A DNA stretch of 64,000 nt from Burkholderiales bacterium (GTDB taxonomy: Bacteria; Pseudomonadota; Gammaproteobacteria; Burkholderiales; Casimicrobiaceae): positions 168,284 through 232,283 of the forward strand of contig JADYZP010000039.1 of the NCBI GenBank assembly GCA_020853025.1. The letters run 5' to 3'. How positions within the stretch are numbered: position 1 is the first letter of the stretch; each line of letters starts with the position of its first letter. The position numbers and the translations under genes are program-made. Below, one piece after another: positions 3,058 through 46,292 of the stretch. The notes under the pieces are model-generated. The model had not been told where the DNA came from and made no database searches. It was given only the letters and a program-made list of their open reading frames with translations.

Positions 3058-3247
3058 CCTGGTTCTCCTGTTCCTGCTTCGCCTAAGGCCTCGTGGGGCC
3101 GCGGACGGTATGTGAAGGTTTCAGCGCGCCTGCGCCAATATCCCGGCTTCCACGCGTTGCGTCGCGATGGGTGATCACGAAAGGGGCTGCCGCGCAGCAC
3201 GCCGCGACCGTGAAAGGATAGCAATATTGATCGTGCGGCCCGCTAAG

Positions 3248-5128
3248 ATGGAGCCTATGCGCTTGAGAGCCTTCCTGCTGTGGGCCGCATCGGCCGGCGT
3301 GATTGTGGCCGGAATGCTGCTTTACCGAGGTGATTTCGACACTATCACGGTCGCTGCCGGGTTCTCCGAAGGCTGTGTCGTCTGCCACGGCAAGGTCGCG
3401 GGTCTCGAAGGTCCGCACGCGCCCTCGGCCATTGGCTGCGCTGCGTGCCACGCCGGCGACGCGCGCACGCTCGACCGCGCTATTGCCCACGCGGGGATGG
3501 TACTCATCCCCGGCAACTTGGCCGACGCGGCGCGCACTTGTGGAAAGTCGGATTGCCACGCGGCGATCGTTCCACGCGTGGAACGATCGATCATGGCGAC
3601 GATGGCAGGCGTGATCGCGGTCAACCGCGAAGTTCTGGGCGAGCCGGCGCGCGAAGGTGCGCCGATACCGCATGCGGCGCAGCTCGGCCACGGAGTCGCC
3701 GACAGCCATCTGCGCGAGCTGTGCGTGGGTTGCCACCTCGGACAGCCGAAGACCGAGTGGGGGCCGATCGGCGAGCAATCGCAGGGGGGCGGCTGCAACG
3801 CCTGCCACCTCGAGTACGGCAAGCGTGCGGCGACGGAGCTCGCGCGTTATGCGGCGACGCCGCACGTCCAGCGCACGGCGAGTCCAGCCACGCATCCGTC
3901 GCTCGACGTGAACCCGCGAAACCTCCATTGCTTCGGCTGCCACAGTCGTTCGGGACGCATCGCCTTGAGCTACGAGGGCTGGAACGAGATGCACTTCCCG
4001 GATGGAAAGGCGCCGCCGGACGCCGTGCCGCCGCGCGTGAGAAAACTCGACGATGGGCGCCATGTCGAGCAGATCGTGCCCGATATTCATCACCAGCGCG
4101 GCATGGAGTGCATCGACTGCCACACCGCCAACGAGCTGATGGGCCCGGGCACGACGGTAGAGAGAAAGCGCCAGCAATTGCGCGTGGGCTGCGAAGATTG
4201 CCATGCGCGGAAGACCCATTCGGTGGCCGCCGATGCCCTCGATCCCGAGTCGGCGAGGCTCCTGGCGCTGCGCGGTCGCCCGCTCTCGGGCACGCAGCGC
4301 ATGGGCACGACGCGCGACGGCGAGTCGCTGGTCAACGTGGTCATCGAGGAAGGAGGAAGTGCGCGGCTGCTGCGCAAGCGCACGGGAGAGCCGCTCGCGC
4401 TGGCCGCCCCGCTTGCGGCGTGCACCGACGGCAAGGGCCACGAGCGGCTCTCATGTGCGAGCTGCCACGCCGCATGGGCTCCGCGCTGCGTGTCCTGCCA
4501 CACGGCATTCGACCCGGCAGGCGAAGGCTTCGATCACGCGGCGCAAGCCTGGGTCAAAGGCACGTGGAACGAAACCGCGGGTCCATTCGAGGCGGTGCCG
4601 CCGACACTCGGCGTTTTGTCGGAGCAAAGCGTGCGCGGTGCGATCGATACCTTCGTGCCGGGGATGATCATGACCTTCGATCGCAATCGGGAGGTCGCCA
4701 AGCCGCCGGATGTGATCTTCCGCCGGCTCTACGCCAAGCTTTTCGCGCACACCATCCGCCGCGAAACGCGCTCCTGCACATCGTGCCACAGCGATCCCGT
4801 GACGCTGGGCTACGGGAAGGGAATCTTGAATTACGCCATTTCGGGAAGGGCCGGCCGCTGGATGTTCGAACCGCAAGCGAAGCCTTCTGCGCAAGACGGC
4901 CTGCCGGAGGATGCGTGGACAGGCTTTCTGCAGGAGAGAGGCGGAATGGTTTCGACGCGCGAGGGCGCGCGCCCCTTCTCGGTGGCGGAGCAGCGCCGCA
5001 TTCTCACGGTCGGCGCGTGCCTTGCCTGCCACGCCGCGGACTCGGCGGTGATGAAACGCTCGCTTGTCGATTTCGCGGGTGAACTCGAACGCCGCAGCGC
5101 CCGCTGCGTGCTGCCCGACTGGCCGTGA
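3248..5128 (+). CDS. Multiheme c-type cytochrome (11 CXXCH plus one CX4CH)
   Basis: Counted CXXCH: CVVCH, CAACH, CVGCH, CNACH, CFGCH, CIDCH, CEDCH, CASCH, CVSCH, CTSCH, CLACH; plus CGKSDCH; N-terminal membrane anchor. Confidence 0.9.
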   Translation: MEPMRLRAFLLWAASAGVIVAGMLLYRGDFDTITVAAGFSEGCVVCHGKVAGLEGPHAPSAIGCAACHAGDARTLDRAIAHAGMVLIPGNLADAARTCGKSDCHAAIVPRVERSIMATMAGVIAVNREVLGEPAREGAPIPHAAQLGHGVADSHLRELCVGCHLGQPKTEWGPIGEQSQGGGCNACHLEYGKRAATELARYAATPHVQRTASPATHPSLDVNPRNLHCFGCHSRSGRIALSYEGWNEMHFPDGKAPPDAVPPRVRKLDDGRHVEQIVPDIHHQRGMECIDCHTANELMGPGTTVERKRQQLRVGCEDCHARKTHSVAADALDPESARLLALRGRPLSGTQRMGTTRDGESLVNVVIEEGGSARLLRKRTGEPLALAAPLAACTDGKGHERLSCASCHAAWAPRCVSCHTAFDPAGEGFDHAAQAWVKGTWNETAGPFEAVPPTLGVLSEQSVRGAIDTFVPGMIMTFDRNREVAKPPDVIFRRLYAKLFAHTIRRETRSCTSCHSDPVTLGYGKGILNYAISGRAGRWMFEPQAKPSAQDGLPEDAWTGFLQERGGMVSTREGARPFSVAEQRRILTVGACLACHAADSAVMKRSLVDFAGELERRSARCVLPDWP

Positions 5129-27823: not shown

Positions 27824-29164
27824 TCAATCGATCGGCTCGTGCGTGCGGACTCGGAAACGCAGGCGGTCCAGCACTGCAGCCGGTGGACGGTGTCGAGAGA
27901 CGAACTCGACCGTGATCCGATCGATCCCTTCGCCGGCGGCGCGCTCTTCGAGCATCGCCTTCACCGTGCCGCGGACGAATGCAGGGATGTGTAGCAGTCG
28001 CGCATCCGCATCGGGCTCCCACTCCACGCGCCGGCGCTGCCCGGATTCTGCCGGCGTTTCCGGTGCGCGCCCGGGCGGCGGCACGTAGGCGCACTTCGGA
28101 TCCTCGGCGAGCAGGTCTCCGTGCTGCGCCAGCGCCCGCGCGCGGCAGCCGCCGCAGCTGTAGCGGAAATCGCAGGTGCCGCACTTCCCGCCCGGCAACT
28201 CGTTGCGCAGGGCGTGCAACGTCGGGTGACCGGTCCAGATCTGCTGCAGCGATTGCGTTCTCAGATCGCCGATCGCCGCCGGAACGTAAGGGCAGGGCGT
28301 CACCTGCCCCTGCGGGGTGATACGGAAATAGCGCCGGCCTGCGAGACATGCGCTCGACCAGTCGGCGTAGCCGCCGCCACTCTCGCCCGCGTGCAGACCC
28401 TGCAGCCGGCGCATGTAGGGTGCGCATCGGGCACGGATCTTCAGGCCGGGGTGCCGGCCCTGCAGCCGGACGATCTCGCGCAGCGTCTCCTCGTAGCTCG
28501 CGGACGCGAGATCGGTCTGCGTCACGCCACGCCCGGTGCACACGAGGAAGAAGACGTTGAACGCCATGGCGCCGGCCTGCGCCGCGAGCTCTGCGAGCGC
28601 GCCGAGGTCGCCGCGGTTGTCCTCGAACACCGTAGCCTGCACCACGATCGCGAGCCCGGCCTCGCGCGCCACCGCGATCCCACGGCGTGCGCCGGCCCAC
28701 GCGCCCGGCGCTCCCCGCAACCGATCGTGGAACTCCGGCGCCGACGAGTCCAGGCTGATCCCCACGCCCGCAGCCCCCGCGTCCTTCAGGACCCGGGCGC
28801 GTGCCGCATCAAGCAGCGTGCCGTTGGTGCCGACGACAGGCATCAGGTCGCCGTCTGCGGCCGCCTTCACCAGTCGCGGGAGGTCCGATCGCAGCAGCGG
28901 TTCCCCGCCGGTCAACACCAGCATGGCGCCAGGCGCCATTTGCGAGAGCTGGCCGATCACGGTGAGCGCGTCCTCCGTATCCAGCTCGTCACCAGCCTGC
29001 GTCTTCCGCTGCACGGCGTCGAGATAGCAGTGCGCGCAGACGAGATTGCACCGGCGCGTCAGGTTCCAGGAGACGATGTAGGGGGGCTGAGGAAGGGACG
29101 TGGGCGCTGCGGCAGGCATCATCGTGGCCGCGTCCCGAGAGGCGCGCGTAATTCCGCGTTCCAT
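27824..29164 (-). CDS. Radical SAM/SPASM protein (NirJ/AhbD-like) with C-terminal PCP_red-like domain
   Basis: LTRRCNLVCAHCYLD; C-terminal SPASM cysteines CGTCDFRYSCGGCRA; tail WEPDADARLLHIPAFVRG...RIT. Confidence 0.85.
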   Translation of the reverse strand: MERGITRASRDAATMMPAAAPTSLPQPPYIVSWNLTRRCNLVCAHCYLDAVQRKTQAGDELDTEDALTVIGQLSQMAPGAMLVLTGGEPLLRSDLPRLVKAAADGDLMPVVGTNGTLLDAARARVLKDAGAAGVGISLDSSAPEFHDRLRGAPGAWAGARRGIAVAREAGLAIVVQATVFEDNRGDLGALAELAAQAGAMAFNVFFLVCTGRGVTQTDLASASYEETLREIVRLQGRHPGLKIRARCAPYMRRLQGLHAGESGGGYADWSSACLAGRRYFRITPQGQVTPCPYVPAAIGDLRTQSLQQIWTGHPTLHALRNELPGGKCGTCDFRYSCGGCRARALAQHGDLLAEDPKCAYVPPPGRAPETPAESGQRRRVEWEPDADARLLHIPAFVRGTVKAMLEERAAGEGIDRITVEFVSRHRPPAAVLDRLRFRVRTHEPID

Positions 29165-29169
29165 CCCCG

Positions 29170-30213
29170 TCAATCGGCGCCGGGCGGTTCGTCCGCCCCG
29201 TGCGACGTGCGACGCGCGCGCAGCCGCCGCAGTCCGACGAGCTCGATCGCAGCCACACCGGCCACGGCCAGCAGCGGCGCCGCATAGGTGAAGACGCCGA
29301 CCGGTTGCTCCAGGCTGAGGAAATACCAGGTCGAGACCGCCTTCTCCCCACCGCGCTCGCTCTTTGCGCCATCCCACGCGGCGAACGCGACCGGGACGGT
29401 CTGGCCGCGCGCAAAGGTGAACTGCTCCTGGGCGCGTGGAATGCTGACGACCGCCGTCCACACGCCGTCCTTCCACGCAGCCTTGGCTTCGCCGTCCTGT
29501 TGGTTGTCGGCGACCGGCGTAACGGTTCCGAACCCGCGCGCCTCCAGCTTCTCCACCGACCGCTGCGCCTGCAGCGCCGGATCGGCGAGCGTGTTGCCGG
29601 CCGCCCAGGAAGTGAGAAACGCCTTGTCGCCGTCCTTGCCACCGTAGTCCGACGGCTCGGCGATCTCACCGGGGCCGCGCCCGGAGAACGGATACCAGTC
29701 GACCGCCATGTTCGGGTATCTCTCATCCACATCGTTGTTCGGCGCCGGCTGCCAATCCGACTTCCATTGATAGATCGTGACCGGGCGGTTGGCTTCCCCC
29801 ATGCCGAAGAACGGGATGCCCGCTTTCGGATCTGAGGGGAACTCCAGGGCAAGCGCATCCCGGAACGCGCTCACGCCGCCCTTCATCGTCTCGCTTGCTG
29901 CATCCCGCCACTCGAGCCGCAGCGCGAGCCGGCTCTCGTCGTAGAGCGCGCGCACCGCCAAGCCGGTCGCGGACACCGCGTAGATCCGCGGCTTGACCAC
30001 CGCCTGCGGCGATAGCGGAACGTCGAGGGCGTCGGCGCTTGCCCACGCCGCGTCCTCAGGCGAAGTCGGAACCTGCGCCACCGCCCTCGCCAGGAGGGAC
30101 GCCTTCTGCTGCGCGTGGGCGCGGCGGGCCGGCAGCAACAGCCAGCCCGCCGTTGCGGCAAAGGGCGCGCCGAGCAGTAGCCGACGTTGCTTCTCGGGCT
30201 TGTTCGCGGTCAT
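29170..30213 (-). CDS. nxrC: EB_dh-domain heme-b-binding gamma subunit of type II DMSO reductase-family enzyme (NxrC-like)
   Basis: Exported N-terminus; ARALYDESRLALRLEWRD...PVTIYQWKSDWQ; C-terminal TM; operon position. Confidence 0.75.
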   Translation of the reverse strand: MTANKPEKQRRLLLGAPFAATAGWLLLPARRAHAQQKASLLARAVAQVPTSPEDAAWASADALDVPLSPQAVVKPRIYAVSATGLAVRALYDESRLALRLEWRDAASETMKGGVSAFRDALALEFPSDPKAGIPFFGMGEANRPVTIYQWKSDWQPAPNNDVDERYPNMAVDWYPFSGRGPGEIAEPSDYGGKDGDKAFLTSWAAGNTLADPALQAQRSVEKLEARGFGTVTPVADNQQDGEAKAAWKDGVWTAVVSIPRAQEQFTFARGQTVPVAFAAWDGAKSERGGEKAVSTWYFLSLEQPVGVFTYAAPLLAVAGVAAIELVGLRRLRARRTSHGADEPPGAD

Positions 30214-30974
30214 CGCATTCCCTCACGGTCAAAGCACGTTTCACAACTCGACCGCTCGCCCGTGCCCTGTTCGGGTAAGGCTTGAGACCCTTCCTCGACT
30301 ATGTCCGGGCCAGCGACCTGGGCGGGCTTCAATCCCAGCGCTCGCAATTCCGCCTCCAGGAAGACGGCAAGCAGTTGGCCCAGTTCTTGATACAGGGTAG
30401 CGCCCGCTTTGGCGCACAGGCGGCGCGCGAATCCAAATGCCCAGCGGCAAACATGGTCTCGCAGGAACTTGCTTTGCGCCTCGCGGCACAGGGCGAGTTG
30501 TTCGTCCGGATGATTGTTGGCCAACGCATAGGCCTCTTTCAGGCACAGGAAGTGCATGAACTCGAGCTCCACGCTAATGTGATCTACGCGCTCGTGCGAA
30601 TCGGCGGCCAGATCCAATCCGAAAGCCCCATAGAAGCCGGCGATATCGGCGAGCGTATGCGTTTTCTGGAAAATGTGCGCCTGGGCGTACTCGGCTTCGT
30701 AGGGCGGACAGTCCTTGGACATGGCATGACCGAAGCATCGCGTGTAGGCGTCTTCGAGCGAAGCGGCGGATAACGCTGCCATGGCCGGGCGCAGCGCACC
30801 CACTGCTTCGCTGACGGGCGGGTCGGCAAGCATTTCCAGACTGCCCGGCAGCAGGTCGTACTGCTGCTTGAGCGAGATCGGCTGCGCAGCGTCCGGATAC
30901 GATAGCGCGAGCGCCAGGAACGCGTACACCTGGCTGCGGGCTTGCGGTCTGGCCATGACCTCCATTGCGCTCAT
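30210..30974 (-). CDS. TorD/NarJ-like molybdoenzyme assembly chaperone
   Basis: RSQVYAFLALALSYPD; HISVELEFMHFLCLKEAYAL. Confidence 0.85.
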   Translation of the reverse strand: MSAMEVMARPQARSQVYAFLALALSYPDAAQPISLKQQYDLLPGSLEMLADPPVSEAVGALRPAMAALSAASLEDAYTRCFGHAMSKDCPPYEAEYAQAHIFQKTHTLADIAGFYGAFGLDLAADSHERVDHISVELEFMHFLCLKEAYALANNHPDEQLALCREAQSKFLRDHVCRWAFGFARRLCAKAGATLYQELGQLLAVFLEAELRALGLKPAQVAGPDIVEEGSQALPEQGTGERSSCETCFDREGMR

Positions 30975-30988
30975 CGCGAATCCGCTTC

Positions 30989-32255
<1,267 letters not shown>

Positions 32256-32263
<8 letters not shown>

Positions 32264-32531
32264 CGAGCGGCTCCCCACGGCTTGAATCGCGCGTCCATTT
32301 GACGCGGACCTCCTGGATCAGCGAGCGCACGTATGCCTCGCCCTTCTCCCGGTAGATGCGATGCGTGGCGCGGAAACACGGACGTGTGAACAGCAGCATC
32401 ACTTGCCGTTCGTCCCAGCCGAGGAGCAGATACTCCTCCACCAGGCATTCGGCCATCGCGTGCGAATCGCCGCCGGGAACCGGCACGCCCACCAGTTCCA
32501 TCGGATCCGTGAAATCCGCCGGCTTGGTCAT
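32256..32531 (-). CDS. Small conserved-looking protein (~91 aa) between alpha and beta subunit genes
   Basis: Overlaps nxrA-like stop and nxrB-like start; MTKPADFTDPMELVGVPVPGGDSHAMAECLVEEYLLLGWDERQVMLLF. Confidence 0.75.
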
Positions 32532-35500
32532 GCTTTCCCCCGCACCTTGGTCAAGGCGCCCGAAAGGTAGCGAGCCATCACGTCGCTCTCGTGCCCCGGG
32601 GTATACCCGGTGCTCACCGGTTCCCACGGCCCCTTGCCGTCGCGCCCGCCGGGCTCGGCCTTTTCGATGCGCACCAGCGTTTCCTTCGGCACGGTGTTGA
32701 CGGCGTGGTTGTCCACGTCGAAGCCGAAAACAAATGACATGCTGCCCGCCTTCTTGTGGAACAGGCTGTCGGTCTGGTGCATGGGTGGCGCCCAGCCGCG
32801 GGTCACGCTTTGGTGAGAGCCGTAGCGGAAGTTTGACTGGTAGCCGGTGTCCGCTGCCAGCGCCCGCCCGTCGGGCCGGGTTTCATGGGCGAGGACGGTG
32901 CGCTCGGTAGCGATCCAAGCGCTGTGCTTGGTCATGACCACATCGTAGGGATAGGCGGGGTTGTACTTCACCCGGGTGAGCAACCGGAATGCCTTGTAGC
33001 GCGCATCCGTCTGCTTCCAGCCGGCGTACGGGCGGTCCGCCGGGTTGGCGTCGATGTAGATGTAGTCGCCGTCCTCGATGCCGAGGTCCTTGGCTGCCTG
33101 CGGATTCATGTGCACCTGCCAGTCGCCGACGCCGGGCGAGCGCTTGTCCATGCGGTACGGATCACCGAAATTGGTGCTCCAGATCCAGTTCCAGTCCACC
33201 GTCGCCCATGACGAATGGGTGGTGTGCCGGCTCTTCGGGGTCATGCAGAAGAAGCGAAAGCCCTGCGTCCACAGCGGGTTCTTGGTCTTCTTGACCTCCG
33301 GCCACGACAGTTTGTTGTTGGCGACGGCGCGCAGGTCCGCGTCGAGCGATTTCTCCTGCAACATCTTCGGGGTGATCCCGTAGTTCTTTGCCCGGATAAA
33401 GGGGCTGGTCGAGACGATGACGCTCGGCAGGTAGGGCGTCGCTTCCGGGGCCTCGCGGTGCACCACGAGGTTCTCGCCATACTCGATTGCCTCGGGAATG
33501 TCGGTGTAGGCATTGAGCCGGCCGGTATCCGTGTAGAACGGAATGCTGTCGTGCACCTGCTCGTAGAAGGCCACCCGTGGATAGGTGCGGAACAGCATCA
33601 GGGCGGCGCCCGGCTCGCCGTACTTGCCGGCCATGATGTCGGCAACCGTGTAGCCCTGAGTGGTCGTGGAATTGTCGAGCACCCGCTGGATATAGACTTC
33701 CGGCTTGCCTTCGAGCATGAACTTCCAGTGATCGCGGAAGCGCTTGTCGCCGGTGAGCTTGGCGAGCTTCTCCGCGACCAGCGCGAAGATCATGCCGTCG
33801 TCCTTGGAGTCGTAGAGCGGCTTGATGCCGTCCCCGCCCCAGATCTGCAGGAACGGATTGGAGCACGAGACGCCGCATTCGAGGGTCTGGAATTCGAGCC
33901 AGGTATTGGCCGGCAGGACGACGTCGGAATACTCGGCTGAGCCGGTCCATTCCACCTGCTGGTCGATGATCAGGTCGATCTTCGGATTGACGTTCACCAG
34001 CAGGTGGTAGATCCACTTGGCCTGGTTCAGCAGGTTCGCGTTGTTGTACCACATCATCTTGGTGGGGCTCGGCATGTGGGTCTTGCCGGTGAACATCTTG
34101 CGTCCCGCTGCCGGCGTGTCGACGACGAATGGCTTCTCGCCGAATCCCCAGTAGCTCATCTCCTCGCCGTGCTCTAGCCCGCGGATGTTTTCCGGCCGGA
34201 TCTTGCCGTGAGGATCGAGCACCTGGTTGAATGGATCCTCCCGCACGTAGGCGCCGCCGACACCGGGGCCGGACCAGGCGGAGCCCTGGAACAGCGCGCC
34301 CTTGTAGTTGCCGGCCCAGGTGTGCGCACCCGAGCCCGGGATGCCGATGCTGCCGACCAGCATCAGCGGCAGGCACACCGCGCGATTGTGCAGCGTGGCG
34401 TGGAAGTAATGGTTGATGCCCTCGCCGTAGTGGATCGCAATCGGATAGGCCTCGCGCGGCTTGCCCTTGAAATCCGGATCCCAAAAGCGCCGCCCGAAAT
34501 CCTTCGCCAGGCGCTCGATCAGTTCCTTCGAGGCACCGCTGATATCGCTCGCCGTTTCCAGGTCATAGTCGCGCAAGTGCATCCGATACATCTGCCACAC
34601 GGTCATGGCCTCGATTTCGGCACCGCTCGCGAGCTTCACCTTCCCCTGCCACGCGAGCTCCGGCTCGACGCCGAGCGTCGTGAGCTTGCCGCCCACGTCG
34701 TCGCGCGTGATCGGTTTCGGGCCGCCCGACTTGCGGTCGAAGACCACGAAATCACCCACCCGCTCGCGCTGTTCGGCAGTCATGCCCTGGATCCTGAAGC
34801 TCGGCCCGGCCGAGATGTCACGGTTGCGGTAGCCCGCGGACAAGTCCTGGGGCTTCAGGCGCTTCAGCGTATCGGTGCGCACCAGCAGCGGAAAATCGGT
34901 GAACTGCCTGACGAAGGCCTCATCGTAATAGCCCTTGTCCATCAGGTATTTGGTGACGGCAAGGAAAATGGCGGTGTCGGAGAGGCCGGGACGAACCGAA
35001 ATCCAGTAGTCGGCCTTCGTCGCGGTCGGGTTGTATTCCGGTGCAATGACCGCGATGCGCCCGCCACGCTCCATGATTTCGGTGAGCCAGTGGGCCTCGG
35101 GCATCTTGTTTTCAATCAGGTTCTTGCCCACTTGCACCGTGAACTTGGTAAAGCGCAGGTCGTTCAGGTCGATGTCGGAGGTCTGCAGCCCGTGCACGAA
35201 GGGTTGCCCCGGCGCCTGGTCGCCGCGCCAGGTGTATTCCGACCACTCGCGCCCGCCCTTCGCCTTGTCGGGACCCACCTTGCGCACGTTCGCATCGAGT
35301 AGCCCCAGCAGGTTGGCCATGCGGAACGTACCGAACTTGCCGACCACCCCGTGCGGCGGCAACGAACTGCCGAGCTTCATGGTGCGCGTGCCGGCGCCTT
35401 CCCAGTGCTCCAGCATCTCCGCGGTATAGCGGTCTTTTTCGATCAGGCGCCGGCGGCCGTCGTCGCCACTATAGGTACGCGCGATGGCGATCAGCGCCTT

Positions 35501-36070
35501 GGCGACATAAGTGCTTGCCTCGTCCCACGACATGCGGACGAACTTGTCGGTGCCTCTGGAATCGAATTTGTACTTGGTGCGCAGCGAGGGCGTGTCTGAC
35601 AAGGACGGGAAGCCGGCGTCAGCCCACTCCTTCCACCCGGCTCGGATCATCGGGCCCTTGGCGCGATAGGGTCCGTACATGCGCCGATGCATGGTGAATC
35701 CCTTGAGACACCCGCGCGGGTTCCACGCGTAGGTGGCCTGGTTGCCGTACAGGTCCTTGTACTTGTGGACGTCGTAATTCTGCTCGATGCGCGTCACCAC
35801 GCCGTTGCGCACGAACGCGCGCATGCGACACATGTGGGTGTCGTTCGGCGCGCAGATGAAGGTGAAGGTACGATCGTAATGGTACTGGTCGTGATAGACC
35901 TTCTCCCAGTCACGGTCCGGGTAGTGCTCCAGTGGATTTCCGACGCCGGCCGCCGGTGCGAGGTTGCGCGCGGCGAACGCCGGCAGCACGTTGCCCGCAG
36001 CAGCCGCGCCGATCGCTGCGGCGCCGGCGCGTCCCAGAAACTGCCTGCGCGATAGCTTCTTTTCGTCCAT
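32528..36070 (-). CDS. nxrA: Tat-exported molybdopterin oxidoreductase alpha subunit, periplasmic nitrite oxidoreductase-like (NxrA-like)
   Basis: SRRQFLGRAG Tat signal; HYDRTFTFICAPNDTHMCRMRAFVRNGV...WNPRGCLKGF FS0 cluster; LRFTKFTVQVGKNLIENKMPEAHWLTEIMERGG. Confidence 0.82.
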   Translation of the reverse strand: MDEKKLSRRQFLGRAGAAAIGAAAAGNVLPAFAARNLAPAAGVGNPLEHYPDRDWEKVYHDQYHYDRTFTFICAPNDTHMCRMRAFVRNGVVTRIEQNYDVHKYKDLYGNQATYAWNPRGCLKGFTMHRRMYGPYRAKGPMIRAGWKEWADAGFPSLSDTPSLRTKYKFDSRGTDKFVRMSWDEASTYVAKALIAIARTYSGDDGRRRLIEKDRYTAEMLEHWEGAGTRTMKLGSSLPPHGVVGKFGTFRMANLLGLLDANVRKVGPDKAKGGREWSEYTWRGDQAPGQPFVHGLQTSDIDLNDLRFTKFTVQVGKNLIENKMPEAHWLTEIMERGGRIAVIAPEYNPTATKADYWISVRPGLSDTAIFLAVTKYLMDKGYYDEAFVRQFTDFPLLVRTDTLKRLKPQDLSAGYRNRDISAGPSFRIQGMTAEQRERVGDFVVFDRKSGGPKPITRDDVGGKLTTLGVEPELAWQGKVKLASGAEIEAMTVWQMYRMHLRDYDLETASDISGASKELIERLAKDFGRRFWDPDFKGKPREAYPIAIHYGEGINHYFHATLHNRAVCLPLMLVGSIGIPGSGAHTWAGNYKGALFQGSAWSGPGVGGAYVREDPFNQVLDPHGKIRPENIRGLEHGEEMSYWGFGEKPFVVDTPAAGRKMFTGKTHMPSPTKMMWYNNANLLNQAKWIYHLLVNVNPKIDLIIDQQVEWTGSAEYSDVVLPANTWLEFQTLECGVSCSNPFLQIWGGDGIKPLYDSKDDGMIFALVAEKLAKLTGDKRFRDHWKFMLEGKPEVYIQRVLDNSTTTQGYTVADIMAGKYGEPGAALMLFRTYPRVAFYEQVHDSIPFYTDTGRLNAYTDIPEAIEYGENLVVHREAPEATPYLPSVIVSTSPFIRAKNYGITPKMLQEKSLDADLRAVANNKLSWPEVKKTKNPLWTQGFRFFCMTPKSRHTTHSSWATVDWNWIWSTNFGDPYRMDKRSPGVGDWQVHMNPQAAKDLGIEDGDYIYIDANPADRPYAGWKQTDARYKAFRLLTRVKYNPAYPYDVVMTKHSAWIATERTVLAHETRPDGRALAADTGYQSNFRYGSHQSVTRGWAPPMHQTDSLFHKKAGSMSFVFGFDVDNHAVNTVPKETLVRIEKAEPGGRDGKGPWEPVSTGYTPGHESDVMARYLSGALTKVRGKA

Positions 36071-36107
36071 GGCTAGTGGCGTCCTCTTGGACTGCGCCTA
36101 TTCAGGG

Positions 36108-36869
36108 TCACCGCCGCGGTTCATAGCCGGTTGCGCGGTAGAGATACATGATCACCTTCCACGCTTCATCCGCGGTGAAGTCGTAGCTGTGAAGCGTGGA
36201 TGCCTCCGGGTCATCGGCCGGCGTGGTCCAGCGCGGCATCGCGCTGTTGAACTGGTTCTGGATGCCGCCCACGGTGAGTCGCCAATACACGTAGGGCAGG
36301 GTGAGCTGGGCGATCGTGCCGGCGTCCTGGAAATTGGCCGGGCGGATGGGGTAGCGGAAGCCTTCGGCCGCGGGTCCCTGGCCATCGAGTTTCTCGCCAT
36401 GGCAGACGGCGCAGTTCGCCTCGTAGAGCACCTTGCCCCGCGCGATGGCTTCCGGGTTCCATTTCGCGGGCTCGGCCGCCCAGTCCGGCACCTTGATGCT
36501 CCCCAGGATCTCTTCGCCGACGGTGGGATGGCGCTGGAAGATCTCCACCGGCGGCGCGTAGGTCGGGCGCAGCGCGTCGTACACCGACCATCCGATCACG
36601 AGCGGGATAACCGCCAGCAGGCCCCAGCGCTGGAACCGAATTGCGGCCGGTTCGCCTGCGGATTCGGCAATGAAGAAATCGGCGAACTCGCGCATGCGCT
36701 CGTCGCGCAAGGTGACGTGGATCACGATTCCGGCGATCACGAACCCCATGTACAGGACGATCACGCTGCCCGGAATCACGGGACGCAGCAGCTTCAAGAA
36801 CAGGAATAGCCCGGCCAGCACCAGGAAGGCGCGGGTCGGGAGCGGCAGATGGAAGGCGCCGAGCTTCAT
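36108..36869 (-). CDS. Membrane-anchored monoheme cytochrome c
   Basis: CAVCHGEKLDGQGPAAEGF; N-terminal TM segments. Confidence 0.9.
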   Translation of the reverse strand: MKLGAFHLPLPTRAFLVLAGLFLFLKLLRPVIPGSVIVLYMGFVIAGIVIHVTLRDERMREFADFFIAESAGEPAAIRFQRWGLLAVIPLVIGWSVYDALRPTYAPPVEIFQRHPTVGEEILGSIKVPDWAAEPAKWNPEAIARGKVLYEANCAVCHGEKLDGQGPAAEGFRYPIRPANFQDAGTIAQLTLPYVYWRLTVGGIQNQFNSAMPRWTTPADDPEASTLHSYDFTADEAWKVIMYLYRATGYEPRR

Positions 36870-37699
36870 GACCGCCTGCCTTGCGCGGCGAGATATCGCA
36901 CCAGCGCGTCGAGCTGCGCCGCGTTCAGTCGCGTCCCGTAATCCTGCGGCATCACGCCGCTCGGAAAGCCCTGCCGTTCATACGTCTTGGGATTCACGAT
37001 CGATTCCATGAGGAACGCCTCAAGACTGATGCCGCGCTCGGCGGCTGCCTGCTGCATGCCGGCTGCGTCCAACGCCGGCCCGATCTTCGTCTCGCCGGCC
37101 TTGAGACTGTGGCAGCCGTCGCAGGTGAGCGCAGTGAACATGGCAACCGGATCGTCGGTCGCCGCGCTGGCGGGCTGGGCGCTTGGCGCGCTCGTCGCGC
37201 TCGCCGTCGGCCTGGGGACATCGCCCACCTTCACCGTCGGCGTCTTCCCGAGCGACTGCAGATAGGCGATCACCGCCACCGCCTCTTCGTAGCCGAGATT
37301 GGTGGGGGCCGAGGTCGAGGGCGGCATGATGTTCGCGAAGCCTTCGACCAGGTAGGCGCCGGGTTCGTAGAGTGCCTGCGCCAAGTATCCGATCTGGGTG
37401 TCGGGACCGCCCGTCACCCCTTGCGCGCGGCGCACGGCAATCCCGGCGAGATTGGGCCCACGCCCGGCGCCTTTCACACCTGCACCGGGCTCGATCGTGT
37501 GGCAGGCGAGACAGCCGCGTTGCCGCACGATCGTCTGCCCGATCTGAGCCAATTCGACTGGTGTAAGCGCTGCGCTGATCTCCTGCGCCTTCGGCGGCTC
37601 CCAGCGCGTCTGCGGGATCCAATTCGCGAACCAGACGAAGAATCCGATGGCCAGGAATGCCGGAACGAATGGCGTCGCGTACGAAAGCGTCCGGCTCAT
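36866..37699 (-). CDS. Membrane-anchored diheme cytochrome c
   Basis: CLACH and CDGCH; ATGA overlaps with both neighbours. Confidence 0.92.
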   Translation of the reverse strand: MSRTLSYATPFVPAFLAIGFFVWFANWIPQTRWEPPKAQEISAALTPVELAQIGQTIVRQRGCLACHTIEPGAGVKGAGRGPNLAGIAVRRAQGVTGGPDTQIGYLAQALYEPGAYLVEGFANIMPPSTSAPTNLGYEEAVAVIAYLQSLGKTPTVKVGDVPRPTASATSAPSAQPASAATDDPVAMFTALTCDGCHSLKAGETKIGPALDAAGMQQAAAERGISLEAFLMESIVNPKTYERQGFPSGVMPQDYGTRLNAAQLDALVRYLAAQGRRS

Positions 37700-39477
37700 G
37701 CGCCCTCCCCGCTCGGAGCGAGCGCCGGCGCGCGTCCATCGCCGCCGGACGCCGCGTCAGGCGCTTTCGCCAGACCCGAGATGGCAAAGGCAGCCGCGAG
37801 CATGACGAAGAAGATGAAGGTGATCGCCGTGATGATCACCGCGACCTCGCCCAGGCTGGGCAGTCCGGCGCCGGGCGAGGTGTCCTGCAGGATGCCGTAG
37901 ACGTGCCAGTTCAGGCGCACGCCACTGCGCGCATAGCCCATCAGCGCCATCAGCCAGACGATGACGAAGGCGAGCATGATCAGCACGTAGTGGCCGCGCC
38001 GCGGCAGCGTGCCCCAGCGCACCTCCGCCACCGTCCGCGCGCCGCGCAGCAGCACGAGGTCGAGGGCGAACGTCGCCACGATCCCGATCATGAGGACGAT
38101 GATCTGCCAGATCGAGGTCTTGATCCGCACTTCCGCCGGAGCGAAGTACCCGTACACGCCGAGCGCCGTGATGGCGAGCGCGGTCAATCCCACCAGACTC
38201 CACTGGATCGTGGTGCCCTGCCGATGCCAAGCCACCGTCGTCTCGCGCCCGGCGCGGCGATAGAGCAGGTAGCTCGCGTAGAGCACCACCAGCACCAGCG
38301 TGACGGCGATCATCTTCGGCGCCATCACGCCGAGCGCGCCGAGAATCGGATGGAATCCCCCGGTGGACTCCTCGATCGACGCGGCCATGGTGTGCGGCGT
38401 CGCCCACACGACGAAGCCGCTGATCAGCGCCACATTGAACACCGGGCTCCAGCGCTGCTGCGCTTCGGAGCCGGGGATGCGCAGCAGTCCGAGCCAGGAG
38501 TAGTAGGCGGCGCCGATGAAGAGCACCGCGATCACGATCGCCTGGATGATGAACAACCACGACAGCACGCCGCCCATCAGGGTGACGCCGTAGGTGGCGG
38601 AGAAGGCGAACAGCTCGAAGCCGAAATAGTAGCCGGCGAAGGGCAGGAACAGCATCGTGAACAATGCGATGAGGTTGCCGGTGTAGCCCATCCAGTCGTA
38701 CAGCGCCCGGTCCTGCTCGCGGGTCGCGATCAGGAACCGGTAGGCTGCGTATGCCGAGCAGAGCAAGGCGCCGAACGTGATATTGGCGACCAGGCGATGG
38801 ATGTTGAGCGGCATCCAGCCGGGGTTCCAGACCGCGTCGTACAGGCTGATGAGCGCGCCCTGCTGGTCGACGCCGGCCGGCGTCATCATGAACGTCGCCC
38901 ACGCGTCGGCGATGAACATCACGATCGTGCCGAAGACGTTGAGCAGCAGCCCGAGCCACAGGTGCAGCCACTTGCGCTCGCCCTGCAACCGGTCCCAGGT
39001 GTAGTACCAGAGGTACAGGCACAGCGTCTCGGCTACGAAGAACAGCGGATACACGACGAACGTCGGCCCGAAGATCCCGGTCATGTAAGCCATGAACTTC
39101 GGATACGCGGTGAAGAGCAGGAACCCGAGCAAGGCCCCGGTGATCGCGGTGAGCGAATAGGCGGCGGGCAGCAGGCGCGCCATCTCGTGGGCGAGCCAGT
39201 CGTAGCGTTGCGCTTCGCGGGGGTTGGTCTTCGCGACGCGCCAGCCGAGATACTCGATGAACAGCGCGAACATCGGGACCGCCAGCACGAAGGCGGCAAA
39301 CATCAGATGCAGCTGAGCCGCGATCCATACCGCGAGGCGGCTGTCCATGCCCAGCACCGACCGGTATTCCGGCCCGGCCGGCAGCCCCTGCGCGTACACG
39401 CACTGGGCGACGACGAGCAGGCATCCGGCCACCAGCACTCCGACGATGCGATTGACCCACGCTGGCGTGCTTCCCAT
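37696..39477 (-). CDS. CydA-like cytochrome bd-type oxidase subunit I (593 aa), no CydB adjacent
   Basis: Multi-TM protein; AAQLHLMFAAFVLAVPMFALFIEYLGWR; TWDRLQGERKWLHLWLGLLLNVFGTIVMFIADAWATFMMTPAG. Confidence 0.82.
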   Translation of the reverse strand: MGSTPAWVNRIVGVLVAGCLLVVAQCVYAQGLPAGPEYRSVLGMDSRLAVWIAAQLHLMFAAFVLAVPMFALFIEYLGWRVAKTNPREAQRYDWLAHEMARLLPAAYSLTAITGALLGFLLFTAYPKFMAYMTGIFGPTFVVYPLFFVAETLCLYLWYYTWDRLQGERKWLHLWLGLLLNVFGTIVMFIADAWATFMMTPAGVDQQGALISLYDAVWNPGWMPLNIHRLVANITFGALLCSAYAAYRFLIATREQDRALYDWMGYTGNLIALFTMLFLPFAGYYFGFELFAFSATYGVTLMGGVLSWLFIIQAIVIAVLFIGAAYYSWLGLLRIPGSEAQQRWSPVFNVALISGFVVWATPHTMAASIEESTGGFHPILGALGVMAPKMIAVTLVLVVLYASYLLYRRAGRETTVAWHRQGTTIQWSLVGLTALAITALGVYGYFAPAEVRIKTSIWQIIVLMIGIVATFALDLVLLRGARTVAEVRWGTLPRRGHYVLIMLAFVIVWLMALMGYARSGVRLNWHVYGILQDTSPGAGLPSLGEVAVIITAITFIFFVMLAAAFAISGLAKAPDAASGGDGRAPALAPSGEGA

Positions 39478-39882: not shown

Positions 39883-41223
39883 ATGGACGGCGGCAGCGCG
39901 GCGTACTCGGAACGGGAAGCGCTTGGCGCTCCGGACGCCGGCCCGGCGCGAGCCGACGCGGCGACCGCGGCGCCATCGCTCTATCGTGCGATCCTGGTGG
40001 CGGCGGATTGCTCCGATCACTCCAATCGTGGCGTGAGCGAAGCAGTGGCGCTGGCGGAGATTGCGCATGCGAAGGTCACTGGAATCCACGTCTATGCGGC
40101 GCGGCTGCACGATCTGCGCTTCCGCCAGATGGAAGGGGGGCTGCCGCAGCAATACCGCCAGGAGCAGGCGCTCGAGGAGCAGCGCCAGATCCACAACGAG
40201 CTCATCACCCGCGGACTCACCCTGATCTCCGACTCGTATCTGGATCAGGCGGCGCACGCCTGCCGCGCCGCGTCGATTCCCTTCACGCCGCAGTCCCTGG
40301 AAGGCAAGAACTACCGGGCGCTGCTCGAGGAAGCCAACAGCGGGCGCCATGACCTGCTCGTGATCGGCGCCCAGGGGCTCGGCGCGGTTCCGGAAGGCGG
40401 AGTGGGTACCGTCTGCGAACGCGTCGTGCGTCGAGCGGCAATCGACACGCTGGTGATCAAGGACCCGCAGCGGCGCCTCGCCGACGGCCCGATCGTCGCG
40501 GCGGTCGACGGCTCGGATCACGCATACGGCGGCTTGCTGAGCGCGCTCGCGCTGGCGCAGGCCTGGGGCGTCGGGCTGCAGGTGGTGGCCGTCTACGATC
40601 CGCACTTTCATTATGTGGCCTTCAACCGCATCAGCCGCGTGTTGTCGGAGGAGGCCGGTCGCACGTTCCGCTTCGCCGACCAGGAGCGCCTGCACGAGGA
40701 CATCATCGACGCCGGTCTTGCCAGGATCTACCGGGGCCACTTGAGCGTCGCGGAATCCATCGCCGCCGAGCACGGCGTGGCGATCGAGACCGCGCTTCTC
40801 GACGGCAAGCCGCACGCCGCAATCGAACGGCATCTGCGCGAGGTCGAGCCGGCGCTGCTGGTGATCGGCAGGCTCGGCATCCATGCCGACCCGGAACTCG
40901 ACATCGGAGGCAACGCCGAGCGACTGCTGCGCAACGTCGAATGCGCGGTTTTGCTGAGCCAGCGCGCGCACCGGCCGGGCACGCACACAGTCGCCGCAGT
41001 GACCACCAGCTGGACGTCCGAGGCCGAGCGGCGAATGGACCGAGTGCCGGAGTTCGCGCGCAGGATGGCGCGCATGGCGATCCTGCAGTACGCCCAGGAA
41101 CGGGGGCACACGGTGATCACCGAGCGCATCGTCGACGAAGCCACCGACGTTCTCTGCCCCGGCCACGCCCGCAACCGCGGCGGGCGAGACGCCGGGCACG
41201 GTCCGTCAGGACCGCATGAGTGA
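39883..41223 (+). CDS. Tandem universal stress protein with C-terminal PCP_red-like domain
   Basis: Two Usp modules (YRAILVAADCSDHSNRGV; PIVAAVDGSDHAYGG...LLVIGRLGIHADPE) followed by WTSEAERRMDRVPEFARRMARMAILQYAQERGHTVIT. Confidence 0.88.
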   Translation: MDGGSAAYSEREALGAPDAGPARADAATAAPSLYRAILVAADCSDHSNRGVSEAVALAEIAHAKVTGIHVYAARLHDLRFRQMEGGLPQQYRQEQALEEQRQIHNELITRGLTLISDSYLDQAAHACRAASIPFTPQSLEGKNYRALLEEANSGRHDLLVIGAQGLGAVPEGGVGTVCERVVRRAAIDTLVIKDPQRRLADGPIVAAVDGSDHAYGGLLSALALAQAWGVGLQVVAVYDPHFHYVAFNRISRVLSEEAGRTFRFADQERLHEDIIDAGLARIYRGHLSVAESIAAEHGVAIETALLDGKPHAAIERHLREVEPALLVIGRLGIHADPELDIGGNAERLLRNVECAVLLSQRAHRPGTHTVAAVTTSWTSEAERRMDRVPEFARRMARMAILQYAQERGHTVITERIVDEATDVLCPGHARNRGGRDAGHGPSGPHE

Positions 41224-42652
41224 CCCGGATGTCATCGTCGTAGGCGGAGGCATCTCCGGGCTTTCGGCGGCGTGGTGGCTGGCTCGGTCCGGCCGTTCGG
41301 TCGAGGTTTGGGAGCAGGACGCCCGGCTCGGTGGCAAGATCGCGTCCCGGCAGGCCGACGGCTACCTGACCGAGCGTGCGGCCTCGATGATGCTGAACTT
41401 CCGTCCCGAGGTGAGCCAGCTGCTCGCCGCCATCGGGCTCGACGACGCCAGGATCCCGTGCCCGAGCGCCCCGCAATGCCAGCGTTATCTGGTCCGGAAC
41501 CGTGGCTTGGTGTCGGTTCCGATGCGCCTGGGCGCGCTCGTACGCTCGCCGCTCTGGAGCCTGCGCGGCAAGCTGCGCCTGCTCGCCGAGCCGCTCGTTC
41601 CGCGCGGGGGCCATCCCGACGAGACCGTGAGCGAGTTCGTCGTCCGGCGCCTCGGCCGCGAGGTGCTGGAGACGGCAATGGAGCCGTTCGTCGCCGGTCC
41701 GCTCGCATCCGACCCCGACCAGGCGAGCGCCCACGCCGTGCTGCCGCGGCTGGTCGCGCTGGAGCAGCGCTACGGCAGCCTCGTGATCGGGGCGAGTGTC
41801 CGCAGGATTCTGCGGCGCGGCACCGCTCCGGTGCGCGAGCTGTTCTCCTTCGACGGAGGCATGGCGACGCTGATCCGGGCCCTGTCTGCGACCTCCGGCG
41901 TGCGCTTCCGCGCGCGGTGCACTGCGCGGCACCTCGAGCCCACTCGGTCGGGCTGGCGTCTCACGGGCCAAATGCCCGAACGCGAGCTGACGGTCCGGGC
42001 CCGGGAGCTCGTGCTGAGCGTGCCCGCTCCGGCCGCCGCGGCGCTGCTTCACCCACTCGATTCCGACCTGGGACGTTTGCTGGACGGCATCGAGTACGGC
42101 GCGCTGACGGTGGTGCACGTCGCTTTCGATCGATCGGCCATTCGCCATCCGCTCGACGGAATGGGGTTCCTGGTACCCCGCAGCGAGGGTCTGCCGCTCA
42201 CCGGCTGCCAGTGGATGAGCAGCACGTTTCCGGCGCGCGCGCCGCGCGGCAAGGCGTTGCTGACGTGCTATGTGGGCGGCGCACGCGCCCCGCAGACGCG
42301 CGACTGGACCGACAGCCGGAGCATCGACGCGGTGATGGCTTTGCTGGAACCTCTGCTGGGAATCGACGCGGCACCTGAACAGGTGTGGATCGACCGGCAC
42401 GAATCCGGCTTGCCGCTCTATCACGGCGCGTACTTCGGTCGCCTGCATGCGATGACCAAGCGCCTGCGGAACTGGTCCGGCCTGCACCTGGCGGCCAACT
42501 ACCGGGGCGGCGTATCGGTCCGTGACCGCATCACCTGCGCGCATGCGACGGCGCGCCGTATCCACACATCGCTCGCAGGATCGCGGTCGGCGGGATCGGC
42601 GACCGCGTTCGATTCGTCGACCACGCCGGCCGTGCTGCGGAGTTTGGGCTAG
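41216..42652 (+). CDS. Protoporphyrinogen oxidase (HemY/PPOX)-like FAD protein
   Basis: DVIVVGGGISGLSAAWWLARSGRSVEVWEQDARLGGKIAS; C-terminal LHLAANYRGGVSVRDRI. Confidence 0.85.
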   Translation: MSDPDVIVVGGGISGLSAAWWLARSGRSVEVWEQDARLGGKIASRQADGYLTERAASMMLNFRPEVSQLLAAIGLDDARIPCPSAPQCQRYLVRNRGLVSVPMRLGALVRSPLWSLRGKLRLLAEPLVPRGGHPDETVSEFVVRRLGREVLETAMEPFVAGPLASDPDQASAHAVLPRLVALEQRYGSLVIGASVRRILRRGTAPVRELFSFDGGMATLIRALSATSGVRFRARCTARHLEPTRSGWRLTGQMPERELTVRARELVLSVPAPAAAALLHPLDSDLGRLLDGIEYGALTVVHVAFDRSAIRHPLDGMGFLVPRSEGLPLTGCQWMSSTFPARAPRGKALLTCYVGGARAPQTRDWTDSRSIDAVMALLEPLLGIDAAPEQVWIDRHESGLPLYHGAYFGRLHAMTKRLRNWSGLHLAANYRGGVSVRDRITCAHATARRIHTSLAGSRSAGSATAFDSSTTPAVLRSLG

Positions 42653-42777
42653 GCTAGGGTTCGCCGCGAGCTCACAGCGCTGCATTTGACTGCGACCGGT
42701 TGCGGGGTGATTCATGCGGCATTAAGATCTCAAAGCCAGCCCGCCTCTGCGGCATCTGCGAGGATAAGGATGGCGTC

Positions 42778-44888
42778 ATGCCACCGGGAATCGAATCGGC
42801 GGCCGCCGAGCGGCCGAGCACACCCGCAACGGCCGCGCCGCCTGCAACGGCCGCGTCGCCCGCGGCGGGCAGCCCGAGGAAAGCGCGAACCGCCGCGTGG
42901 CCGGCCCTTGTCGTCGGGTTCGCTGTGGCCGCAGCGACGCTCGGCTTGTGGCAGGCGTTGTTGGCGCAGGAGCGGTCCCAAACGGAACGCACGGTTGCGC
43001 TCAGCCTGGAGACCGTCCGGAACGAAATCAGTTCGCGCATGGATTCGCGCATCCTGGCGCTGGTGCGCATGGCCCGCCGCTGGGAGATGCGCGGTCGGCC
43101 GCCACGGCCGGAATGGGAAGCCGACGCCAATTTCTATCTCAGTCACGACGCCGGCTACGTCGCCATCGCCCGAGTGGAACCCGATCTGCGGGTGAGCTTG
43201 ATCATGCCGCAGGATGCGGGGCGCGGGCTGCAGGGTGCGGAGCTCGTCGGCGGACGGCAGCGCGGTGCGCTCGAAACGGCGCGCGCGCGCGGCGACGTGA
43301 CGCTCACGCACCCGTTCAGCTTTTCCACGAGCGATCGGGCCATCATGGTCAACGTCCCGGTTTTCCAGGGCGAGGCGTTCGACGGATTCATCGTCGGCGT
43401 CTTTCGCGTGCAAGCGGCGCTCGCGACGATCCTGGGCCAATCCATCGCGCCGCACCACGGGATCGTCGTATTCGACGGCGGGGAGGAGCTCTACCGTCGC
43501 GACTGGGGCGCCGGACGGTCGACCGAGGATTGGAGCCAGGAAACCGGTGTCCAGCTGGGCGGCGTCACCTGGCGCGTGCGCGTTTCGCCGCAGGAGGAGC
43601 TCATCGAGCAGCGCTCGCCCCTCCCGCGAGCGGCCCTGACCGGAGGCCTCGCGCTCGCGCTGCTCCTTGCCCTTACCGTGCGCTTCGCGCAGGTGGCGCG
43701 CCTGCGCGCGCGCGAGACCGATTCCGCCAATCAAGCACTCACCCGCGTGATCGCCGAGCACCAGCATGCCCACGACCGGCTGCGCAAGCTCTCGCGCGCC
43801 GTCGAGCAGAGCCCGACGATGGTCATCATCTCCGACCTGCAAGGCGCGATCGAATACGTCAATCCTAAGTTCACCCAGGTTACGGGCTACGCGTTCGACG
43901 AGGTGATGGGAAAGAATCCGCGCCTGCTGAAGTCCGGCGAGACAGCGCCGGAGGAGTACCAGCGGCTCTGGCAGACGATCACCGCGGGTGGCGAATGGCG
44001 GGGCGTGCTTCGCAACAAGAAGAAGAACGGGGAGCTGTTCTGGGTGCGTTCGGCGATCTCCCCGATCCGCGACGCGCAGGAGACCGTCACCCACTTCCTT
44101 GCGGAGTCGGAAGACGTCACCGAGCACAAGCGGCTCGAGCAGCAGGTGACCGAGCACAACCGCGAGATGGCCGAGAGCGAAGCGCTCGCCGCCATGGGCC
44201 GGGCCGCCAGCATGATCGCGCACGACCTGCGCAATCCGCTGTCTTCCATCAAGATGGGGTTGCAGATCCTGAGTCGTAAGCCAGCGCAGGGCGGCACCGC
44301 GGCCGAGCAGGAGTTGCTCGAGATCTCCCAGGGACAGGTGCGCTACATGGAAGAGGTACTGTCCGACCTGCTCAGCTACTCGCTGCCCGACGCCCTGAAG
44401 CCGGAATGGCTGAGCATGGAGAAACTGCTCGACACTGCGTTGATGCTGTCGCAGAAGGAGGTCGTGGAGCACAAGGTGCGGGTCAAGACCCATTACCAGC
44501 CGGGCCTGCCCCTGCTCCACGGCGACGCCAACAAGCTGCGTCAGGCGCTGACCAACCTGATCGTCAATGGCGCCCAGGCGGCTGGCGCGAGGGAGAGCGC
44601 GAACCCCACGCTCGTCATCGATGCCCGACTTAGCCTGGGCGTGGCGGACCGGCCTTCCATCCAGGTCGAGATCTGCGACAATGGAAGCGGAATCGCCTCC
44701 GAGCACGCGGACCGCGTGTTCGAGCCGTTCTTCACTACCCGAGCCCAGGGGACGGGTTTGGGGCTGTCGATCGCGAAGCGGATCATCGACCAGCACCAGG
44801 GAAGCATTCGCCTGCAGCCGGAACATCCGGGAGGAACGCGCGTGACGGTGGTGTTGCCGCTCGAGGCGATCCGCAACCGGAATGGCGC

Positions 44889-44892
<4 letters not shown>
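42778..44892 (+). CDS. PAS-domain sensor histidine kinase with CHASE-like N-terminal sensor
   Basis: AEQSPTMVIISDLQGAIEYVNPKFTQVTGY PAS; MIAHDLRNPLSSIKMGL H-box; GTGLGLSIAKRIIDQHQG. Confidence 0.93.

Positions 44893-46292
<1,400 letters not shown>

Follow-up and report, generated by a model that had tools for sequence, protein, structure and literature searches.

A cytochrome bd-like protein lacking the quinol site heads an nxr operon in a Burkholderiales genome

We found that the first gene of an nxr operon in a Burkholderiales bacterium encodes a 593-aa protein of the cytochrome bd superfamily, belonging to its quinol-site-less (OR-N-like) branch. The operon lies in a 64,000-nucleotide stretch of contig JADYZP010000039.1 (the window), to which all coordinates refer. 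Together with the diheme and monoheme cytochromes c encoded behind it, the bd-like protein has about an even chance of forming a module that carries electrons from NXR to the membrane, and there to quinone by reverse transport.

The operon occupies the minus strand from ~27824 to 39477 and reads CydA-like, diheme c, monoheme c, nxrA, a 91-aa ORF, nxrB, chaperone, nxrC and radical SAM. These genes and the divergent genes beside them are as follows.

37696–39477, minus strand: bd-like protein of the CydA superfamily (593 aa), heading the operon, with ~13 transmembrane helices after an N-terminal hydrophobic helix (Pfam, AlphaFold2 model and ligand mapping)
36866–37699, minus strand: membrane-anchored diheme cytochrome c, 277 aa, motifs CLACH and CDGCH; ATGA overlap with the CydA-like gene
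36108–36869, minus strand: monoheme cytochrome c with N-terminal membrane helices, 253 aa, motif CAVCH; ATGA overlap with the diheme c gene
32528–36070, minus strand: NxrA, 1180 aa, with a Tat-type N-terminus and the motif Y-4x-D-11x-QT; best PDB match Kuenenia NXR (7b04)
32256–32531, minus strand: 91-aa ORF between nxrA and nxrB; ATGA overlap with nxrA, no Pfam match
30989–32278, minus strand: NxrB, 4Fe-4S subunit, 429 aa
30210–31106, minus strand: NxrD/TorD-type (NarJ/TorD-type) chaperone, Nitrate_red_del; the listed reading frame probably begins too far upstream
29170–30213, minus strand: NxrC, EB_dh haem-b subunit with a C-terminal hydrophobic helix; ATGA overlap with the chaperone gene
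27824–29476, minus strand: radical SAM/SPASM protein with a C-terminal PCP_red domain; 5' start uncertain
39883–41223, plus strand: universal stress protein (USP) pair with a PCP_red domain, divergent from the operon and conserved beside related modules
41216–42652, plus strand: FAD amino-oxidase/protoporphyrinogen-oxidase-like (HemY-like) protein, conserved beside related modules
42700–46292, plus strand: sensor kinase and sigma-54-type response regulator, adjoining the operon in 11–13 of 24 close relatives

That a 593-aa CydA-like polytopic protein is the first gene had been proposed in an earlier note on this DNA; its reading frame is exact, and Pfam and the AlphaFold2/PDB comparison agree with the assignment. 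The note had also described overlapping mono- and diheme membrane cytochromes c. Their ATGA overlaps are present, but the order is the reverse, with the diheme cytochrome first. NxrA belongs to the true periplasmic NXRs of the Kuenenia (Nitrospira/anammox) type: its full-length match to Kuenenia NXR (7b04) scored 1647 bits, ten times as much as its match to any other enzyme of solved structure, and it is 51–53% identical to Nitrospira NxrA and 64–65% identical to Sulfuricaulis NxrA. For the radical SAM/SPASM protein, the top NCBIfam matches were NirJ2 and AhbD, both under their cut-offs. The 91-aa ORF is kept in the relatives whose contigs extend that far. Upstream of the operon, matches to a sigma-54 promoter pattern were no more than expected by chance, and no GC anomaly indicating an island was found at the operon, though its distribution in the genus is patchy. 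At 3167–5128 on the plus strand, the window also encodes a 653-aa multihaem cytochrome c with many CxxCH motifs, ~23 kb past the 3' end of the operon.

The bd-like protein passed the Pfam Cyt_bd_oxida_I cut-off over residues 46–284 only (64.8 bits; 67.5 bits in the search of the genome). Its AlphaFold2 model (52 sequences) reached a mean pLDDT of 79 and a pTM of 0.80, residues 361–386, including M385, being the low-confidence part. When this model was searched against the PDB, the significant matches were bd-oxidase subunits only (11 at E ≤ 0.001, best 8e-10). Residues were compared using the numbering and ligand roles of E. coli CydA, which we take to be established from bd structures; for the E99 and E445 columns the raw MAFFT alignment of canonical CydA was unreliable, and HHalign mapping was used instead. 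In the profile alignment, H57, Y143, E150 and H227 correspond to H19, E99, E107 and H186 of canonical E. coli CydA, and M385 to M393 if a gap is allowed, an assignment less certain than the others. The E445 position falls at S518/G519, with no D/E in residues 505–524. The equivalent of GRQPW is VRLNW, and the preceding helix carries no carboxylate; E445 has therefore been lost. Y143, E150, H227, M385, K388, M513, R517, S518, H525 and D532 were invariant in the 52-sequence alignment, and H57, E150, H227 and M385 were essentially invariant among sequences of the bd-like family. The Q-loop signature (GD..G...Q..K.A) was present in all four canonical CydA controls and in 0 of 81 bd-like family members. 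Thus, the structure prediction and mapping of haem ligands and Q-loop proposed in the earlier note returned a CydA fold with H57, E150 and H227 kept and the Q-loop absent. Judged by its residues, the bd-like protein is no quinol bd oxidase, its quinol site being lost and part of its O2 site altered. It shows the features of the OR-N-like branch, namely the CydA fold, the absent quinol site and a place in the tree with Nitrospira bd-like proteins and away from canonical CydA.

We then considered the rest of the genome. Pfam CydA matched at two sites, the bd-like gene of the operon and a canonical cydA on contig C28 (532 bits), and the single real Pfam CydB match lies directly after the latter. 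Within the nxr operon, Pfam CydB found no CydB-like protein, in line with what the earlier note had seen. An ordinary CydA whose CydB is encoded elsewhere is scarcely credible and was rejected. A cydB does exist in the genome, but it is paired with its own canonical cydA, the bd-like protein has neither Q-loop nor GRQPW, and the tree splits it from canonical CydA at 100/100. A second genomic bd-like paralogue as a CydA' partner was likewise rejected: the bd-like family profile, run over the 94%-complete genome, gave one match, the operon gene, and found no second paralogue, including none like OR-N2/NIDE0901 (bd-like_2). CcoN (cbb3) and CtaD (aa3) oxidase genes are encoded elsewhere in the genome, as is RuBisCO, a gene content that suggests an autotroph equipped with ordinary haem-copper oxidases.

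The arrangement of the operon is shared by close relatives. Across 24 loci at 75–96% identity, which belong to Burkholderiales, other beta/gamma MAGs and a few MAGs labelled alpha, delta or Chloroflexi, the diheme cytochrome c gene is next in 24/24, and nxrA lies two genes further on in 22, the other two reaching a contig edge first. This conservation excludes chance. In the genus of the window organism, the same operon was found in one of 20 other genomes searched (G119, L154), and another of the 20 (G109) had a divergent bd-like copy only. The latter gene (L155), at 47% identity, stands with a cytochrome c after a kinase/regulator pair and BisC/TorA-like molybdoenzymes, a neighbourhood that is possibly a third context.

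In the phylogenetic tree, the NXR-linked bd-like proteins formed one clade (100/100 support) beside the Nitrospirota bd-like paralogues, bearing out the relation to Nitrospira bd-like proteins that had been suggested. Canonical CydA was apart from all bd-like proteins at 100/100, and the Nitrospira copies fell into separate clades. A grouping with bd-like_2 (95/94) was not trusted because of its long branch. The Burkholderiales clade within the nxr operon is a new lineage of the already described NXR electron-transfer family. Distances of CydA and NxrA were modestly correlated (r = 0.56), and those of CydA and NxrB gave 0.85. At two loci (L025:13312–16857 and L028:2861–6403), NxrA is 67–69% identical to that of the window, with NxrB at 77–81% and the CydA-like protein at 75–85%. 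These identities suggest that nxrA was replaced within the operon there, and the divergent NxrA of the two loci is the likely cause of the modest correlation.

Related modules also occur in a second context. At 56 further loci of ~40–47% identity, mostly from gammaproteobacterial MAGs, among them sulphur-oxidiser genera, with some from alphaproteobacteria and Nitrospirota, the CydA-like gene is followed by a diheme c and a cytochrome c gene, in many fused to EB_dh. A same-strand CCP1-CCP2-Rieske-AioA-like operon comes next in 15 of the 56, and CCP1 is reached in four more before the DNA examined ends. Modules of 42% identity before CCP1-CCP2-Rieske-AioA/IdrA-like operons were seen at L084:9755–21626 and in L034, L041, L046, L049, L052–L054, L057 and L073–L078, the hosts of idr-linked modules being sulphur-oxidiser gammaproteobacteria and alphaproteobacteria. 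The genes of this operon make up the idrABP1P2 set, which is diagnostic of iodate reducers according to Reyes-Umana et al. (PMC8692401). NCBIfam calls the large subunit an arsenite oxidase; the iodate (idr) assignment was made by synteny, and we refer to these operons as idr-like. Their association with related modules means that the partner of the bd-like module need not be NXR. Radical SAM-PCP_red, USP-PCP_red and HemY-like genes are common to both contexts, which suggests a role for them in haem modification or maturation. More tentatively, the bd-like protein, its cytochromes c and the haem-related accessory genes might constitute a general, horizontally exchanged module that joins high-potential periplasmic molybdenum oxyanion enzymes (NXR, IdrAB-like) to the quinone pool, the bd-like proteins being reversible quinone:cytochrome c couplers and not oxidases.

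The Burkholderiales genome FR_12 (G005, L157) has the NXR-linked operon and, elsewhere, two more bd-like copies beside a Rieske/AioA-like pair. In Sulfuricaulis (L060 and G004), one contig carries an nxr operon and, a few kb away in opposite orientation, a bd-like module of the second type; the NxrB and NxrA of the nxr operon show 67% and 64–65% identity.

The earlier note had interpreted the protein as a cytochrome-c-linked bd-like terminal oxidase physically coupled to NXR. The tight operonic linkage to a real NXR stands, but the oxidase role is one reading only. In that reading, which we regard as possible but doubtful, the two cytochromes c would hand the electrons from nitrite to a dihaem site where O2 is reduced. 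The CydA fold and the N-terminal haem helices with conserved H57, E150 and H227 are consistent with such an enzyme, loss of the Q-loop is expected with a cytochrome c donor, and OR-N proteins have been proposed as putative c-oxidising O2 reductases (PMC10839748, PMC12342949). In bd-like_2, the Nitrospira paralogue favoured as an oxidase, E445 is replaced too, and its loss alone therefore does not exclude O2 reduction. However, the E99 and E445 positions are both replaced in the window protein, the genome has no bd-like_2, which is distinct from it and very divergent, and the proposed OR-N oxidases are CydAA' heterodimers with OR-N2, for which the genome holds no second paralogue. The presence of cbb3 and aa3 oxidases and the conservation of a homologous module in anaerobic anammox bacteria (PMC3578206) also argue against terminal O2 reduction. 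Alternatively, the protein could be a haem-containing membrane anchor or docking subunit for an otherwise soluble NXR, whose electrons would enter the periplasmic cytochrome c pool and bypass both quinone and O2. Anchoring has been proposed for the Nitrospira module (PMC6606698), and the co-operonic linkage of NXR with two membrane cytochromes c fits it, but NxrC has a C-terminal hydrophobic helix of its own, and 13 helices with near-invariant H/M/E/Y residues seem excessive for this purpose, making such a role improbable.

Coupling of NXR to the membrane and quinone is the reading that we prefer, with moderate confidence. It is supported by the operon overlaps, the gene order of the 24 relatives, the 100/100 clade, the loss of the Q-loop and the kept haem positions, and also by CcoN, CtaD, RuBisCO, the single bd-like paralogue and the occurrence of the module in anaerobic anammox bacteria and Nitrospina (PMC3578206). 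Against it, a quinone site was not identified in the bd-like protein, bc1 alone could perform reverse transport, OR-N proteins are generally proposed as c-linked O2 reductases (PMC10839748), and the M385 region is modelled at low confidence. Under quinone coupling, electrons from nitrite would travel from NxrA through NxrB and NxrC to the cytochromes c and on to the haems of the bd-like protein, whose most likely task would be to couple NXR to the membrane. Part of them would probably be pushed uphill to quinone, for NADH and CO2 fixation, and bulk respiration would proceed via the cbb3/aa3 oxidases encoded elsewhere.

The enigmatic bd-like proteins are central to the question of how electrons in nitrite-oxidising and anammox bacteria get from nitrite (+0.43 V) both to O2 and uphill to quinone. 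Earlier papers describe the module itself in Nitrospira, Nitrospina and anammox bacteria and raise the same puzzle (PMC3578206, PMC6606698). New are the Burkholderiales clade fused into the nxr operon and a sister module, 42% identical, that stands next to idr-like operons in sulphur-oxidiser relatives. No paper on the Burkholderiales operon or the idr linkage was found in the open-access literature, which is weak evidence of novelty. Having the whole machinery in one compact Burkholderiales operon could allow this question to be tested against a proteobacterial background. With this operon, periplasmic NXR of the Nitrospira/anammox type also reaches a clade of Burkholderiales; the clade is separate from Nitrotoga, which has another type of NXR (PMC6050957). 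The idr-like operons reveal a second use of the bd-like module.

Among known systems, the closest are Nitrospira bd-like_3/_4 and the bd-like proteins of the Nitrospina and Kuenenia NXR clusters, which share ~14 transmembrane helices, the absent Q-loop, the conserved haem positions and the succession of diheme c, monoheme c and an EB_dh (NxrC-type) protein. The Nitrospira bd-like_3 module comprises two cytochromes c and alt_NxrC_2 (PMC3578206, PMC6606698), and in N. moscoviensis the module is found alongside a putative oxidase that is separate from it, and has been proposed to serve in anchoring or reverse electron transport (PMC6606698). The same gene group of bd-like, diheme c, monoheme c and EB_dh/NxrC is present here, with nxrAB inserted before nxrC. 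Unlike Nitrospira bd-like_3/_4, to which it is ~40–45% identical, the window protein belongs to a separate 100/100 clade and its module heads an nxrABDC operon, with true nxrA–nxrC genes in place of alt_NxrC. The ligand columns are identical in Nitrospira bd-like_1/_3/_4-type copies, the Nitrospirota copies having been tentatively matched to these published names by gene neighbourhood. By contrast, the NIDE0901-like copy (bd-like_2, OR-N2) lacks the M385 column and has a very long branch. The OR-N CydAA' proteins of Nitrospirota and Nitrospinota (OR-N1 with OR-N2/NIDE0901) share with the window protein the quinol-site-less branch, Tyr at E99 and the R517/S518/H525/D532 pattern, but the OR-N2-like partner is absent here. 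Canonical CydAB (5doq, 6rko) has in common with it the CydA fold and equivalents of H19, H186, E107 and probably M393, and differs in CydB, the Q-loop and GRQPW, all absent here, in the replaced E99 and E445, and in the extra helices of the window protein. The idr-linked module resembles the NXR-linked one in its order of CydA-like, diheme c and cytochrome c-EB_dh genes and in its radical SAM-PCP_red, USP-PCP_red and HemY-like neighbours, and is set apart by its CCP1-CCP2-Rieske-AioA/IdrA-like partner and its ~42% identity.
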